Shown: one piece after another, positions 6,575 through 11,403 of the stretch
How positions within the stretch are numbered: the stretch's first letter is position 1
Layout: each line of letters starts with the position of its first letter
Origin: Akkermansia muciniphila
GTDB lineage: Bacteria > Verrucomicrobiota > Verrucomicrobiia > Limisphaerales > UBA9464
Length of the DNA: 54,573 bases
Direction: 5' to 3'
Assembly: GCA_945898055.1 (NCBI GenBank)
Contig: CAMDGV010000028.1
Coordinates: 1 to 54,573 of the forward strand
Program-made: the position numbers and the translations under genes
The notes under the pieces: model-generated
Database searches by the model: none
What the model was told of the DNA's origin: nothing
What the model saw: the letters and a program-made list of their open reading frames with translations, nothing else

Positions 6575-7024
6575 TCAAGGGGGTGGAGGTATCTTCGATC
6601 GATAGCGATTGAAGGCTCGGAGGTCGGCGGGATTCTCGCACCAATAGCGGACGAGGTCACTGAGAGCAGAGAGGGTCTGGGGTTTGAGATGATGTTCGAT
6701 GTCTTCAACTTCTTCCTCGATGGTGCTGGGTTCAATTCCGAGCAAGTTGAGGAGAGCGGTGAGAGTGCGGTGGCGGTCCTTGATATGTGCGGCGACGGCG
6801 CCACCACTGGCAGTGAGAGTAAAGCCTCGATAGCGGGTGTAGTTAACAAAACCACGTTTGGCGAGGCGTCGGACCATATTGGAAACCGTCGATCGACTCA
6901 GTTCTAATTCAAGTGCTAGATCGCTGACTCGCGCATAGCCATTGCGATCGACCAGATCCTGAATTCGTTCGAGATGATCTTCGGTCGATTCCGAGCGGAC
7001 TTCAAGTTTCGCGGTTGGGCTCAT
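6575..7024 (-). CDS. mntR: MntR-like DtxR-family metal-dependent repressor
   Basis: A 149-residue DNA-binding protein with clear similarity to manganese-sensing MntR: helix-turn-helix segment NGYARVSDLALELELSRSTVSNMVRRLAKRGFV (28-60), wing GFTLTASG, then the dimerisation domain. All six metal ligands known from Bacillus MntR have counterparts: Asp16, Glu19, His85, Glu107, Glu110 and His111 (motif VEDIEHHL). It should repress uptake genes when Mn(II) is high. It is divergent from the ABC importer at 7168, the obvious target. The open frame continues upstream to a TTG at 7060, but the ATG at 7022-7024 aligns with the family start and follows an AGAGG, so I chose it. Confidence 0.9.
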   Translation of the reverse strand: MSPTAKLEVRSESTEDHLERIQDLVDRNGYARVSDLALELELSRSTVSNMVRRLAKRGFVNYTRYRGFTLTASGGAVAAHIKDRHRTLTALLNLLGIEPSTIEEEVEDIEHHLKPQTLSALSDLVRYWCENPADLRAFNRYRSKIPPPP

Positions 7025-7086
7025 TGCCCTAGGAAACCTCTGTGACACCTCCAATGCCAAGAAACAAAGTGGGCTGATTGATAAAA

Positions 7087-7123
7087 TGTTTTAGCCTTAA
7101 CACAAATTCTTTGACTTAAAACA
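7087..7123. promoter_or_regulatory. Candidate operator/promoter in the divergent mntR-importer intergenic region
   Basis: The 143-base region between mntR and the importer contains the inverted pair TGTTTTA (7087-7093) and TAAAACA (7117-7123), 23 bases apart in an AT-rich stretch. A TTGACT (7111-7116) could serve as a -35 element, but no good -10 follows at standard spacing. The repeated TTTTA/TAAAA half-sites resemble AT-rich palindromes bound by MntR and DtxR proteins. That either regulator of this locus binds here is inference from position and symmetry only. Confidence 0.35.
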
Positions 7124-7167: not shown

Positions 7168-8100
7168 ATGAAGAGAGAACAAAGTTGGAGCGGCGCGCGT
7201 TTTTTGGTGTGGACCTTTCTGGGGTTACTTGTAGCGAGTGAGTTGACGGCAGCGACGACTGCCCCGTTAAAAGTCACAGTGACCGTGGGAATGGTGGCCG
7301 ATTTGGTACGTCAGGTGGGCGGCGACGAGGTCGTGGTGACTGCGCTCATGGGGCCCGGCGTGGATCCTCATATGTACAAAGCGACCGCTTCTGATTTAAT
7401 TAAACTGCAACGAGCCGAGGTCATTTTTTATTCGGGTCTGCATTTAGAGGGTAAAATGCAGGGACTTTTTGAAAAAATGGCCGTCGCGGGACGACCAGTT
7501 CGAGCGGCGACGGATGGGGTGGACAAAGCGCGACTACTGAAGCCATCTACTTTTGAGGGACAATACGATCCGCATGTCTGGTTTGATACCGCTCTTTGGT
7601 CGGGATGTATCCAGACGATTCAAACTGTTCTGACCGAAGCCAGGCCCGCTGCAGCACCTGTTTTTAGTCGACAAGCGGAGGTGGCGAGAGAGCGACTTGA
7701 GGGACTAGATCGTTGGGTGAAAATGAAGGCGGATCAAGTGGACCGTACTCGTCGGATTTTAGTGACCAGCCATGATGCATTTAATTATTTTGGTCGAGCC
7801 TACGGTTTTAAGGTGGTGGCTTTACAGGGGGTATCGACGGTAACCGAAGCGGGATTGGCCGATGTCACACAATTGGTCGATTTTATTCGGACCCAGAAAG
7901 TGCCGGCTATTTTCGTCGAATCTTCCGTGCCACACGGAACAATTGAGCGTATAAGTCGAGATGCTGGGGTCCGGATTGGGGGGGAGTTATTTTCCGATGC
8001 TTTGGGTACCCCCGGCAAGTTCCATGAGGGATTCGATCTTGGCACCTATGAGGGAATGGTGCATCGCAATGTCGATTTAATCGTTGAGGCGTTAAAATGA
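7168..8100 (+). CDS. Periplasmic Mn/Fe/Zn-binding protein of the importer (TroA/ZnuA family, YtgA-like)
   Basis: This 310-residue cluster A-I substrate-binding protein captures a divalent metal and delivers it to the permeases encoded downstream. It starts with a signal peptide (basic MKREQ, hydrophobic FLVWTFLGLLVASEL, cleavage near TAATTAP). The four metal-coordinating positions of the family are visible: His in GVDPHMYKATASDL, His in YDPHVWFDTALW, Glu in FVESSVPHGTI and Asp in LFSDALG. There is no His-rich loop like that of zinc-specific ZnuA, which with the MntR neighbour favours manganese or iron. It is the first gene of a four-gene operon and is divergent from mntR; the next gene starts 63 bases later. 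Confidence 0.92.
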   Translation: MKREQSWSGARFLVWTFLGLLVASELTAATTAPLKVTVTVGMVADLVRQVGGDEVVVTALMGPGVDPHMYKATASDLIKLQRAEVIFYSGLHLEGKMQGLFEKMAVAGRPVRAATDGVDKARLLKPSTFEGQYDPHVWFDTALWSGCIQTIQTVLTEARPAAAPVFSRQAEVARERLEGLDRWVKMKADQVDRTRRILVTSHDAFNYFGRAYGFKVVALQGVSTVTEAGLADVTQLVDFIRTQKVPAIFVESSVPHGTIERISRDAGVRIGGELFSDALGTPGKFHEGFDLGTYEGMVHRNVDLIVEALK

Positions 8101-8163: not shown

Positions 8164-8970
8164 ATGGATCTTTCTGATCGTTCCTCATCGCTAACAACGG
8201 CGCCGATTGGGGAAGAAAGTCCCCTTGAAGTGCATGATTTGACGGTGGCCTATCGAAAGAAGCCGGTGCTTTGGGGGGTAGATCTTCGAGCGCCTGCAGG
8301 AAAATTAATCGGCATTCTTGGACCGAATGGGGCGGGTAAATCGACCTTGATCAAGGCTTGTATGGGGTTGTTACCGGCCTCGGCGGGTTGGGTAAAAGTT
8401 TTTGGTAAACCGATCAATCAATCGCTTTTACGTGTCGGTTATGTCCCGCAGCGAGAGTCGGTCGATTGGGATTTTCCGGTTAATGTGATGGATGTGGTAC
8501 TGATGGGTCGGTACGGCAAACTCGGTTTATTTCGTCGGCCAACGGCGGCCGATCGGTCCTGTGCCCGAGACTGTTTGGAGCGGGTTAAAATGTTGCCCTT
8601 TGCTGACCGTCAAATTTCCAACTTATCGGGTGGACAACAGCAGCGAGTCTTTTTAGCAAGGGCCTTGGCTCAGGAGAGCGACCTCTATTTTATGGATGAA
8701 CCCTTTGCCGGGGTCGATGCGGCGACCGAGACGGCCATCATTGAATTGCTTCATGAGCTGCGCCATCAAGGGAAGACTCTCTTTGTGGTCCACCATGACT
8801 TACCTACTGCTAGGAATTATTTCGACTGGCTTTTATTGCTTAACATGAGGGTGGTGGCGTTTGGTCCGACCGAACACGTTTTCACTTATGATCTTTTACA
8901 AAAAACCTATGGAGGACGGCTGACCATCTTGAGTGAAGTCGCCGAAGCGGTCCGAGTTAAAGAGGCTTAA
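8164..8970 (+). CDS. ATPase subunit of the metal ABC importer (YtgB/MntB-like)
   Basis: A 268-residue cytoplasmic ABC ATPase that powers metal uptake. It has Walker A GPNGAGKST (near residue 58), the signature LSGGQQQR, Walker B LYFMDEPFAG and the switch histidine in VVHHDL. The Q-loop segment VGYVPQRESVDWDFPVNVMDVVLMGRYG is typical of manganese/zinc importers. About 20 N-terminal residues precede the conserved domain. The stop codon ends at 8970 and the permease gene begins at 8972, so the two are almost certainly translationally coupled. Confidence 0.93.
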   Translation: MDLSDRSSSLTTAPIGEESPLEVHDLTVAYRKKPVLWGVDLRAPAGKLIGILGPNGAGKSTLIKACMGLLPASAGWVKVFGKPINQSLLRVGYVPQRESVDWDFPVNVMDVVLMGRYGKLGLFRRPTAADRSCARDCLERVKMLPFADRQISNLSGGQQQRVFLARALAQESDLYFMDEPFAGVDAATETAIIELLHELRHQGKTLFVVHHDLPTARNYFDWLLLLNMRVVAFGPTEHVFTYDLLQKTYGGRLTILSEVAEAVRVKEA

Positions 8971-8971
8971 G

Positions 8972-10453
8972 ATGATCCCGTTGACCTCCAGTTCTGCTCG
9001 GCAATTCCTTGGAATAGGAGGGCTTTTCGTCGGATTAAATTCTTTAACCACGACGTTATGTGCGGCGCGCATCGGGGACATCACCGAGACGGTTTGGCAG
9101 GCTCAAGCGCTCCGATTTTTGACCCTTGCCGATCCGTCTGTACGCTTTGCGGTTTTGGGAACCGTCTTGCTAGGGATTGTCTGTGGCCTTTTGGGTGGAT
9201 TTCTGGTGGTACGCCGGATGTCGCTGGTGGGGGATGCCTTATCCCACGCTGTCTTACCCGGCGTGGCTTTAGGTTTTCTTTGGAATATGGAGAAGGATCC
9301 CGTGGCTATTTTTATTGGAGCTACGGTAGCGGGGTTGTTGGGGACAGGTTTAGTTCATTTAATTACCCGAACGACCCGCCTTAAAGAGGATGCCGCCTTG
9401 GGCATGATTTTGGCGGGCTTTTTTGGGGCTGGTTTGTGTTTGATGTCGATGTTCCAACGGTTGCCTACCGGTAATAAAACAGGCATCGATAAATTTTTAT
9501 TTGGTCAGGCATCAGCGATTGGAGCGGAGGATATTCGTTTGATGACCGTGGTGACTGTGTTGGTGTTGGGGTTAATTTGTGTGGGCTATAAAGAGTTTCT
9601 CTTAGTGAGCTTTGACCCTGGTTTTTCCAAAGTTTGTGCCTTACCGACGCGCTGGTTGCAGCATGGATTGATGCTTTTGCTTACTTTCTCCGTGGTCATT
9701 GCTCTGCAGGCGGTGGGGGCGGTGTTGGTATCGGCGATGTTAATTACCCCAGCCGCAACCGCTTATTTATTAACCGACCGAATGCATCGGATGCTCATTT
9801 ACGGCACGTTGATAGGAATGTTGTCGGGTGTCACAGGCGCGTTTCTTTCTTTTCTGGGTACCCATCTGCCGACCGGTCCTTTTATGGTGCTATCAGCCAG
9901 CGGCTTTTTTGTCGTTGCCTTCTTTTTTGCGCCAAACCGAGGGGTTATTCCCCGGTGGTGGATGGCTCGATCGCAACGGATAAGAATTGTTCGAGAGAAC
10001 ACCTTAAAAGCGGTTTATCAGATTTTAGAAAACGAAGAATTTAGAAGGGAATCGGTGAGTTTACGTGAACTAGCTGAGCGTCGACGCCTGACATTTGATG
10101 AGGTTTTTAGGGAAGTTCGATCGCTGATCTCGGTGAACTTTGCAACGGCTGTCGACGATTCGGTGGCGTTGACTCCGTCGGGTTGGCAACGCGCGGCGTC
10201 CATTGTGCGGAATCATCGATTATGGGAGTTGTATTTGACCCATGCTGTCCAGATGGCACCCGACCATGTTCATGACGACGCTGAGAAGATTGAGCACGTT
10301 TTGGGCGAGGATGCGGTGCGGCAACTTGAGCGCCGATTAGAGTTTGCCGACCGGGACCCTCATGGGCGACCGATACCCGCCGTGCAAGCGATTCATGGGC
10401 ATCCGAACGGAAGCCGCGAAAAACGGGTCACTGGATATGGAAAATCGTCATGA
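8972..10453 (+). CDS. Metal ABC permease fused to a C-terminal DtxR-type regulator (YtgCR-like)
   Basis: This 493-residue protein joins two modules. Residues about 1-320 are an ABC-3 family permease with many hydrophobic helices and GDALSHAVLPGVALGF (near residue 80). Residues about 342-470 form a DtxR/MntR-like regulator: a winged helix (ENTLKAVYQIL... LTPSGWQRA), then a metal-binding dimerisation domain with likely ligands His415, Glu419, His432/434, Glu441, His442 and His464 (motifs HRLWELYL, KIEHVLGE, DPHGRPIP). The same architecture is known as YtgCR in Chlamydia, where the C-terminal part is cut off as an iron-dependent repressor. Cleavage here is inference. The start at 8972 follows the ATPase stop; an upstream in-frame start lies inside that gene. 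It overlaps the next gene by ATGA. Confidence 0.9.
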   Translation: MIPLTSSSARQFLGIGGLFVGLNSLTTTLCAARIGDITETVWQAQALRFLTLADPSVRFAVLGTVLLGIVCGLLGGFLVVRRMSLVGDALSHAVLPGVALGFLWNMEKDPVAIFIGATVAGLLGTGLVHLITRTTRLKEDAALGMILAGFFGAGLCLMSMFQRLPTGNKTGIDKFLFGQASAIGAEDIRLMTVVTVLVLGLICVGYKEFLLVSFDPGFSKVCALPTRWLQHGLMLLLTFSVVIALQAVGAVLVSAMLITPAATAYLLTDRMHRMLIYGTLIGMLSGVTGAFLSFLGTHLPTGPFMVLSASGFFVVAFFFAPNRGVIPRWWMARSQRIRIVRENTLKAVYQILENEEFRRESVSLRELAERRRLTFDEVFREVRSLISVNFATAVDDSVALTPSGWQRAASIVRNHRLWELYLTHAVQMAPDHVHDDAEKIEHVLGEDAVRQLERRLEFADRDPHGRPIPAVQAIHGHPNGSREKRVTGYGKSS

Positions 10454-11403
10454 GTTTCATTCCTCATTTTTCCGTGCATCAGGTTTTTATTGCTCCTTGG
10501 ACGACGGATATTTCCAGTTATGGCTGGATAATGTTGATGACCTTTCTGGTGGGAGCGGCCTGCGGACTTGTCGGCAATTATCTCATTTTACGTCGGATGG
10601 CACTCATGGGAGACGCGATTAGCCACAGCGTTCTTCCGGGTATTGTCGTTGCTTTTCTGGTAACGGGTTCCCGAGGGACCGTGCCGATGTTTGCTGGGGC
10701 GGTAGCGGCGGCGGTCCTGACGACAGTGTTGATTGAGGTCATACACCGGCATTCAGTCATCAAGCAAGATGCGGCAATAGGGATTGCCTTTTCAAGTCTG
10801 TTTGCTTTGGGGGTGATTCTGATCGCTGTCTTTGCTGACACCGTAGATTTGGATCAAGACTGTGTCTTGAACGGGGAACTCCCGCTCATTGCGGTAAGCC
10901 CGCCGATGACCCTTGCTGGGATGACCCTAGGACCACCAGCGGTGGTCCGGATGGGATGTGTTCTTTTTTTCTCGTGCGGCTTAATTCTTCTTTTCTATAA
11001 GGAACTCTTGTTGAGCTCTTTTGACCCGGCCTTGGCATCGGCAATGGGACTACGATCAGGATGGATCCATCAGTTACTGATGATTTGGCTGTCGATTACG
11101 GTAGTGTCGGCTTTTGAGGCCGTGGGATCCATCCTCGTGATTGCCATGTTGATTTTACCGGGAGCGACAGCGGCACTCATCAGCGATCGGTTGGTCGTGC
11201 GTTTGGGGTGGAGTCTTGTGCATGCGGCACTGAGTGCGGTCTTGGGACTTCATTTATCCATTGGATTGGACTGTTCCCCCTCGGGAGCGGCGGTGGTGGC
11301 TGGGTCCTTTTTATTCGGAGTTGCATGGGTTTTTGGGCCCCAAGATGGTTTGGTGAGTCGTTGGTGGAGTCGAAAAGAGGGACGCACTGAGACCTTAGTT
11401 TGA
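10450..11403 (+). CDS. Second metal ABC permease (YtgD-like)
   Basis: This 317-residue integral membrane protein is of the ABC-3 (ZnuB/MntB/TroCD) family and should pair with the permease half of the preceding fusion as a heterodimer. It shows the family stretch MGDAISHSVLPGIVVAFL (near residue 55), the KQDAAIGIAFSSLFALGVILI helix and VGSILVIAMLILPGATAALISDR. It lacks a regulator domain and ends soon after the last helix (LVSRWWSRKEGRTETLV). Its ATG at 10450 overlaps the previous stop in an ATGA junction, so it is the last gene of the operon. A 110-base gap precedes gltA. Confidence 0.92.
   Translation: MSFIPHFSVHQVFIAPWTTDISSYGWIMLMTFLVGAACGLVGNYLILRRMALMGDAISHSVLPGIVVAFLVTGSRGTVPMFAGAVAAAVLTTVLIEVIHRHSVIKQDAAIGIAFSSLFALGVILIAVFADTVDLDQDCVLNGELPLIAVSPPMTLAGMTLGPPAVVRMGCVLFFSCGLILLFYKELLLSSFDPALASAMGLRSGWIHQLLMIWLSITVVSAFEAVGSILVIAMLILPGATAALISDRLVVRLGWSLVHAALSAVLGLHLSIGLDCSPSGAAVVAGSFLFGVAWVFGPQDGLVSRWWSRKEGRTETLV

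Follow-up and report, generated by a model that had tools for sequence, protein, structure and literature searches.

The window, namely the whole stretch of 54,573 nucleotides analysed here, comes from a genome of 4.63 Mb, in which it is contig 28, and carries on its forward strand a four-gene operon for a metal importer, the genes and features of which are collected in Table 1. The third gene of the operon encodes the fusion protein that is the subject of this study. Ahead of the first conserved membrane helix, this protein has an additional hydrophobic N-terminal segment (8972–9095) that ends with CAARIGD, and AKIGD-like variants of this ending were found in some relatives. The segment resembles a signal or anchor sequence, in a part of the predicted structure modelled with low confidence.

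Table 1. Genes and features of the importer operon and its promoter region (positions in the window)
Feature	Position	Strand	Basis or remark
Free MntR-type regulator, divergent from the operon	6575..7060	-	winged helix-turn-helix and metal domains matched; likely ATG near 7024
Palindrome TGTTTTA-N4-TAAAACA, candidate MntR operator	7087..7104	+	one mismatch; in the divergent promoter
Substrate-binding protein of the importer, ZnuA family	7168..8100	+	
ABC ATPase of the importer	8164..8970	+	top NCBIfam matches are Mn/Fe importer ATPases, under their cut-offs
Fusion of ABC-3 metal permease and DtxR-type sensor domain, 493 aa	8972..10453	+	ORF open from ATG at 8972 to stop at 10453; Pfam, AlphaFold2, structure matches
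ABC-3 membrane domain, PsaC-like, residues 55–319	9134..9928	+	Pfam, predicted structure
Single predicted helix from membrane domain to DtxR-domain helix 1, residues 325–354	9944..10033	+	
Recognition-helix position of the winged helix, residues 375–387	10094..10132	+	fold kept, sequence unconserved
Fe_dep_repr_C metal-binding/dimerisation domain, residues 401–469	10172..10378	+	H415, E419, H434, E438, E441, H442
Second ABC-3 permease, without sensor domain in this operon	10450..11403	+	

In Pfam, the fusion was matched by ABC-3 (PF00950) at residues 57–319 with an E-value of 1.4e-69, over the curated cut-off, and by Fe_dep_repr_C (PF02742) at residues 401–469 with an E-value of 2.5e-23. PF00950 was matched in 51/51 fused proteins, and PF02742 is present in all of the 91 proteins scanned (51 fusions of the first permease, 12 fusions of the second permease, and 28 free regulators). 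The DNA-binding winged helix-turn-helix family PF01325, in contrast, was not matched by Pfam in the fusion of the window at E-values up to 0.1. An AlphaFold2 model of the fusion, based on a 51-row alignment (the protein of the window and 50 of the 76 long fused frames, at an 88% identity filter), has a mean pLDDT of 85.4 and a pTM of 0.80. When this model was compared with known structures by Foldseek/VIA-align, the membrane domain was found to resemble PsaC (7kyp, Z 36.4), and the C-terminal part resembled DtxR (2qq9, Z 18.2, rmsd 1.8 over 137) and the manganese repressor DR2539 (8pw0, Z 17.9). The winged helix is modelled at a pLDDT of 94–98, and the metal-site stretch 431–460 at lower values (block pLDDT 76–81). 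The membrane domain is predicted to close with the helix at residues 301–319, after which one helix (residues 325–354) runs on into helix 1 of the DtxR domain. The order of domains in the original prediction, a permease followed by a winged helix and a DtxR dimerisation domain, is thus borne out by Pfam, by the AlphaFold2 model, and by the structure matches, which include the DtxR fold for the C-terminal part; as to the winged helix itself, the fold stood, while the sequence signature of its Pfam family did not appear.

The fold of the permease is therefore shared with manganese importers of the PsaBC type, and D88 and H92, invariant across the 51 fused proteins, apparently correspond to D46 and H50 described for PsaC, a correspondence obtained by reading the motifs rather than by computation. 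PsaC differs in that it ends about where the linker helix of the fusion starts and is without a sensor domain. Likewise, the fused domain shares the fold and the metal-binding/dimerisation domain with free DtxR, DR2539, and MntR; the fused proteins differ from these free regulators in being without the signature of the DNA-binding family.

With respect to the metal site, H415, E419, H434, E441, and H442 of the fusion are aligned to H79, E83, H98, E105, and H106 of DtxR, which we take to be the positions of metal ligands. H432 and H464 had also been proposed as likely ligands, but presumably neither is located at a ligand position of DtxR; H464 sits in a DPHG motif, which is common to many free regulators. 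The list of ligands in the original prediction hence holds for the residues aligned with DtxR and fails for H432 and H464, and it overlooked E438, which is aligned to C102 of DtxR. H415, E419, and E441 do not vary among the 121 fused domains of the first permease, that of the window being one of them; H442 is present in 119, and position 438 is either Glu or Asp in all; position 434 is His in 96 and Asp in 25. All six ligand positions are filled in 94/121 of the first-permease fusions and in 12/12 of the second-permease fusions. Given that the same is true for 19 of the 29 free regulators, the retention of the ligands is no peculiarity of the fusions. A further ligand position in helix 1, which we assume to be M10 in DtxR and D8 in MntR, is Asn343 in the fusion of the window; at this position, the 121 first-permease fusions have Asn (95), His (23), Gln (2), or Asp (1), and all 12 second-permease fusions have Asp.

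The region between the last membrane helix and the winged helix (residues 320–341) had been proposed as the site at which the C-terminal domain is cleaved off. The spacing between G324 and E342 in this region is, however, 19 residues in 120/121 first-permease and in 12/12 second-permease fusions, and the sole exception (L149) is a row shortened by trimming of the sequence; unlike the linker, the wing and the helix-1 loop differ in length among the fusions. Since the linker is predicted to be an ordered helix and is constant in length, the region put forward for cleavage is instead predicted to act as a rigid coupling. The product released in Chlamydia, YtgR, is described as being about 28–30 kDa (PMC5599777; PMC7755916), which is larger than the product of ~17 kDa expected from cleavage at residues 320–341; the cut in Chlamydia thus does not map to these residues. 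An internal translation start at Met331 was also considered as the source of a free domain and was rejected, as Met is present in only 4 of the 121 sequences.

The part of the fused domain corresponding to the DNA-reading half of DtxR differs in conservation from the metal-binding half. At E-values up to 0.01, PF01325 was matched in none of the 51 first-permease fusions and none of the 12 second-permease fusions, while it was matched in 28/28 free regulators encoded near the operons (29 regulators minus L084 and L147, which lie in long composite frames, plus that of the window). We then compared the free MntR and the fused domain taken from the same genomes, so that differences in divergence time are removed. 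For 15 genomes of one genus, the identity of the recognition helix is 0.95 among the free MntR proteins but 0.50 among the fusions, and that of the metal/dimerisation domain is 0.86 and 0.92, respectively. In 21 genomes of the order, which are a part of the 26 fusion-bearing genomes, the respective values are 0.71 (MntR) and 0.36 (fusion) for the recognition helix, and 0.66 and 0.83 for the metal/dimerisation domain. The difference has the same sign in 104/105 pairs within the genus and in 209/210 pairs among the 21 genomes, the pairs being non-independent. As judged from these sequences, the fused domain has lost the conserved DNA-reading sequence and keeps the metal/dimerisation half. Against the loss of DNA reading, nonetheless, it counts that the segment of H2 and the recognition helix is constant in length in 121/121 first-permease fusions, and that the winged-helix fold, which may bind DNA without the family signature, is still confidently predicted. 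Net charge was dropped as an argument because it differs between the two kinds of fusion; the mean charge of the helix-turn-helix part is +4.8 in the second-permease fusions, +2.1 in the free regulators, and 0.0 in the first-permease fusions, and its neutrality in the last of these is hence no sign of lost DNA binding.

A free regulator coexists with the fusion in nearly all of these genomes. In 24 of the 26 fusion-bearing relatives, a protein with PF01325 is encoded away from the fusion, and the family was found on none of the fusions; the two genomes without a match (G006 and G011) are 67% and 77% complete, respectively, and the match in G014 is a fragment of 62 aa. Throughout the phylum, PF01325 was matched somewhere in the genome in 51/53 fusion genomes among the matches listed. 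The two misses are G169 and G248, and the regulator beside the operon of G248 (L182) gave a PF01325 match once its protein sequence was scanned.

The promoter palindrome TGTTTTA-N4-TAAAACA was found with up to one mismatch in 15/19 genomes of the genus, as compared with 4/19 for the control pattern written backwards, and all of the 15 site-bearing genomes have one copy ~1.8–2.0 kb ahead of the fusion gene, that is, before the operon. In other loci, the recognition helix HVTVIR of the free regulator pairs with TGTAGC-N4-GCTACA (3/3 loci), and QASVTNM pairs with GTTAGCC-like or AAAGTTAG-like palindromes, some of them at up to three mismatches. In 18 loci with operator classes assigned by hand (the weak site of L035, at three mismatches, was counted as TGTTTTA, and L074 was assigned to the AAAGTT class), the identity of the free-regulator helix is 0.79 within the same class and 0.38 between different classes (AUC 0.946), and that of the fused helix is 0.48 and 0.28, respectively (AUC 0.857). 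The operator class thus correlates with the fused helix as well, as shared ancestry would give. Within the TGTTTTA class, the helix of MntR is nearly constant and the fused helices are widely different. Taken as a correlation on related genomes, these sequence comparisons point to free MntR as the DNA-binding regulator of the operon. The sequence TTTGCCTTAAGGCAAA, which we take to be the MntR box, was also tried and failed to describe the promoters generally, and the palindromes derived from the sequences themselves were used instead.

In relatives of the genus (L212–L216), we also noticed second copies of the palindrome, with up to one mismatch, near a gene for a protein of ~320 aa. In L215, this gene matches PF13557 (Phenol_MetA_deg) and thus presumably encodes an outer-membrane barrel; furthermore, a CobW-type GTPase is encoded near the second palindrome in L214–L216 (PF02492 in L214). 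A small MntR regulon in these relatives is therefore possible.

As for the distribution of the fusion, 39 genomes of the neighbourhood (that of the window included) were searched, and a single-frame fusion was found in 24, with two more in which it is split at contig ends. A species-wide scan of genome contigs gave at least 594 pattern matches, 479 of which encode relatives. The best 80 of these 479 all cover the junction of permease and DtxR domain; 79 are titled Verrucomicrobiota and one Klebsiella, and the closest named record among them is titled Pedosphaera sp., with 94% over the C-terminal query. Six of the matching records with loci of the family (L037, L041–L043, L099, and L100) bear the title of Akkermansia muciniphila, in five cases, or of Klebsiella pneumoniae, in one, and these labels of metagenome-assembled genomes look doubtful. 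With a profile of the junction at an E-value of 1e-8, at least 120 of 387 genomes of the phylum match, free regulators being counted in. The fusion is not rare, all of the best 80 loci spanning the junction. Its occurrence outside Chlamydiae, stressed in the original prediction, is not new; PMC5599777 attributes to Thompson et al. 2012 the finding of permease–DtxR fusions in 11 phyla, and the architecture is already known as widespread. Among the papers listed from the open-licence literature, apparently none is on the fusion in Verrucomicrobiota. Among viral contigs, 54 pattern matches were obtained, none coding for a relative. Of the 70 plasmid records matching the C-terminal region, not one did so over 80% of the query; no fusion was seen among the 30 matches listed, all of which start at query residue 35 or later, beyond the end of the membrane domain.

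The gene order is exactly substrate-binding protein, ATPase, fusion, and permease on the strand of the fusion in 80 of 120 fusion loci, and many of the other 40 are cut at contig ends or are double fusions. Indeed, the second permease is also fused in 12 loci (L144–L154 and L158), a number that gives no frequency because the 40 fetched loci were picked by hand, some for the very reason that both permeases appeared fused; in two of the 12 second-permease copies (L152 and L153), the segment of H2 and the recognition helix is shortened. In L209, the fused permease is the sole permease within the stretch, and in L210 the contig ends 385 bases beyond the fused permease, so that a second permease is possible there.

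A related arrangement was observed with proteins of ~320–350 aa that are DtxR-like (L204 4482–5510, L205 3063–4121, L206, L207, L208, and L211). These six FeoB-type proteins have PF02742 and FeoA, with two FeoA stretches in five of them and one in L206, and PF01325 was matched in one of the six (L206, E-value 0.001, below the cut-off). In L204 and L205, the next gene encodes a FeoB_N protein, which in L205 is followed by a frame resembling by eye the membrane part of FeoB. A hydrophobic N-terminal helix is recognised by eye in L204–L208 and is not clear in L211. A DtxR protein with twin FeoA domains, PgMntR, is described in Porphyromonas gingivalis (PMC4805248). A tree was built from 108 sampled domains, in which one branch with an SH-aLRT of 98 sets the 33 free regulators apart from 75 domains that are either tethered or FeoB-associated (55 from first-permease fusions, 12 from second-permease fusions, two from L209 and L210, and six of the FeoB type); to this grouping, a shared decay of the helix-turn-helix part may contribute. 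The metal part alone gives the same separation at an SH-aLRT of 86, which is weak (80 columns, long branches).

Taken together, we propose, with a probability of about 0.57, that the fused domain would sense the metal in the cytoplasm and gate the importer in cis, with transcription being handled by MntR. At high cytoplasmic Mn2+ (or Fe2+), the metal would fill the DtxR sites, and the packing or dimerisation of the fused sensor domains would be altered; the rigid helix would then relay this change to the core of membrane part and ATPase, and import would be slowed (trans-inhibition). Separately, free MntR would repress the operon at the promoter palindrome. The same ion may thus be sensed at two levels, rapidly at the transporter and slowly through transcription. 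The 12 loci with both permeases fused fit one sensor pair per transporter. Against the sensor gate, on the other hand, it counts that a single permease carries the sensor in the operon of the window, so that a dimer within the transporter would require a homodimer of the fused permease, that H434 is replaced with Asp in 25/121, and that repression in E. coli is also described for full-length Chlamydia YtgC, with the appearance of C-terminal products (PMC5599777).

A regulatory domain attached to an importer is not without precedent, the closest working models being MetNI and ModABC; in MetNI (with its C2 domain) and ModABC, the attached domain is described as binding the substrate and stopping transport, and in OpuA “osmolarity is sensed through an HTH motif” (PMC10710835). 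In MetNI and ModABC the domain is bound by the substrate in the cytoplasm, as we infer for the fusion. The domain is, however, on the ATPase subunit in these importers and on the membrane subunit with a DtxR fold in the fusion, and the gating, demonstrated in the former, is proposed for the latter by inference.

Other roles of the fused domain would also be conceivable, each with a much lower probability. The maltose transporter offers an analogue, in which MalK holds MalT according to the state of transport. The fused dimerisation domain might similarly pair with or bind free MntR and hold it at the membrane depending on the transport state; PF02742 is shared by the fused proteins and the free regulators, and both occur in the same genomes. 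We nonetheless consider such docking unlikely. The two kinds of domain fall into separate groups of the tree (SH-aLRT 98 for the whole domain and 86 for the metal part), and only some of the free regulators near the operons contain a FeoA part (18/28 match FeoA), making one common docking partner unlikely. Equally improbable in our estimate is that the domain takes the metal at the cytoplasmic exit and passes it on without any gating. Within the fused domain, conservation is indeed highest in the metal/dimerisation half, which comes after the last membrane helix, but a chaperone or trap of this kind would leave the retained dimerisation fold and the helix of fixed length unexplained.

The closest system in architecture is YtgCR (CT069) of Chlamydia trachomatis, compared here by description, in which a permease with a C-terminal DtxR-type domain is likewise encoded in the operon of a metal importer. 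The metal residues of YtgCR are reported to be conserved, and YtgR, the 28 kDa product, binds DNA with Fe2+ (PMC5599777); a product of 30 kDa is described in PMC7755916, and YtgR is described as the sole identified iron-dependent regulator of Chlamydia (PMC6504234). The fusion in this study differs in that a separate MntR is present and the DNA-reading helix is unconserved, while YtgR binds DNA. If the system worked in the same way, the C-terminal domain would be released by cleavage and would repress this operon in a metal-dependent manner. The architecture with the critical DtxR metal residues conserved, the well-predicted winged-helix fold, and the palindrome in the promoter would all agree with this. 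The recognition helix is, however, unconserved and the helix-turn-helix family absent, a separate MntR coexists with the fusion, the linker is ordered and locked in length, both permeases are fused in some operons, and the internal start is not conserved. These features, together with the spread of the fusion over 11 phyla, leave the repressor release put forward in the original prediction unsupported in this phylum, and we regard it as slightly less probable still than docking or metal trapping. A membrane-tethered repressor, in which the domain would bind the operator without being cleaved off, is raised as a possibility for YtgC in PMC5599777; it would be compatible with the retained fold but is very improbable given the same losses in the DNA-reading part (PF01325 in 0/51 and 0/12).

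In conclusion, the metal sensor built into the importer would be our preferred reading of the fusion at this locus. More broadly, and at somewhat less than even odds, a DtxR-type repressor in Verrucomicrobiota may have been welded to Mn/Fe importers, lost its DNA reading, and become an in-cis gate on one or both permeases, with a seemingly membrane-anchored sister of DtxR–FeoA–FeoA composition doing the same for FeoB, the importer of ferrous iron; the so-called permease–repressor fusions would then mostly be self-sensing transporters, of which the Chlamydia repressor is a special case. If this is true, the label “permease–repressor”, which rests on one well-studied pathogen, would be wrong for many of the fusions, and Verrucomicrobiota, a phylum of mostly free-living relatives, would have a direct way by which an ABC importer of Mn/Fe is quickly shut off by its own cargo.
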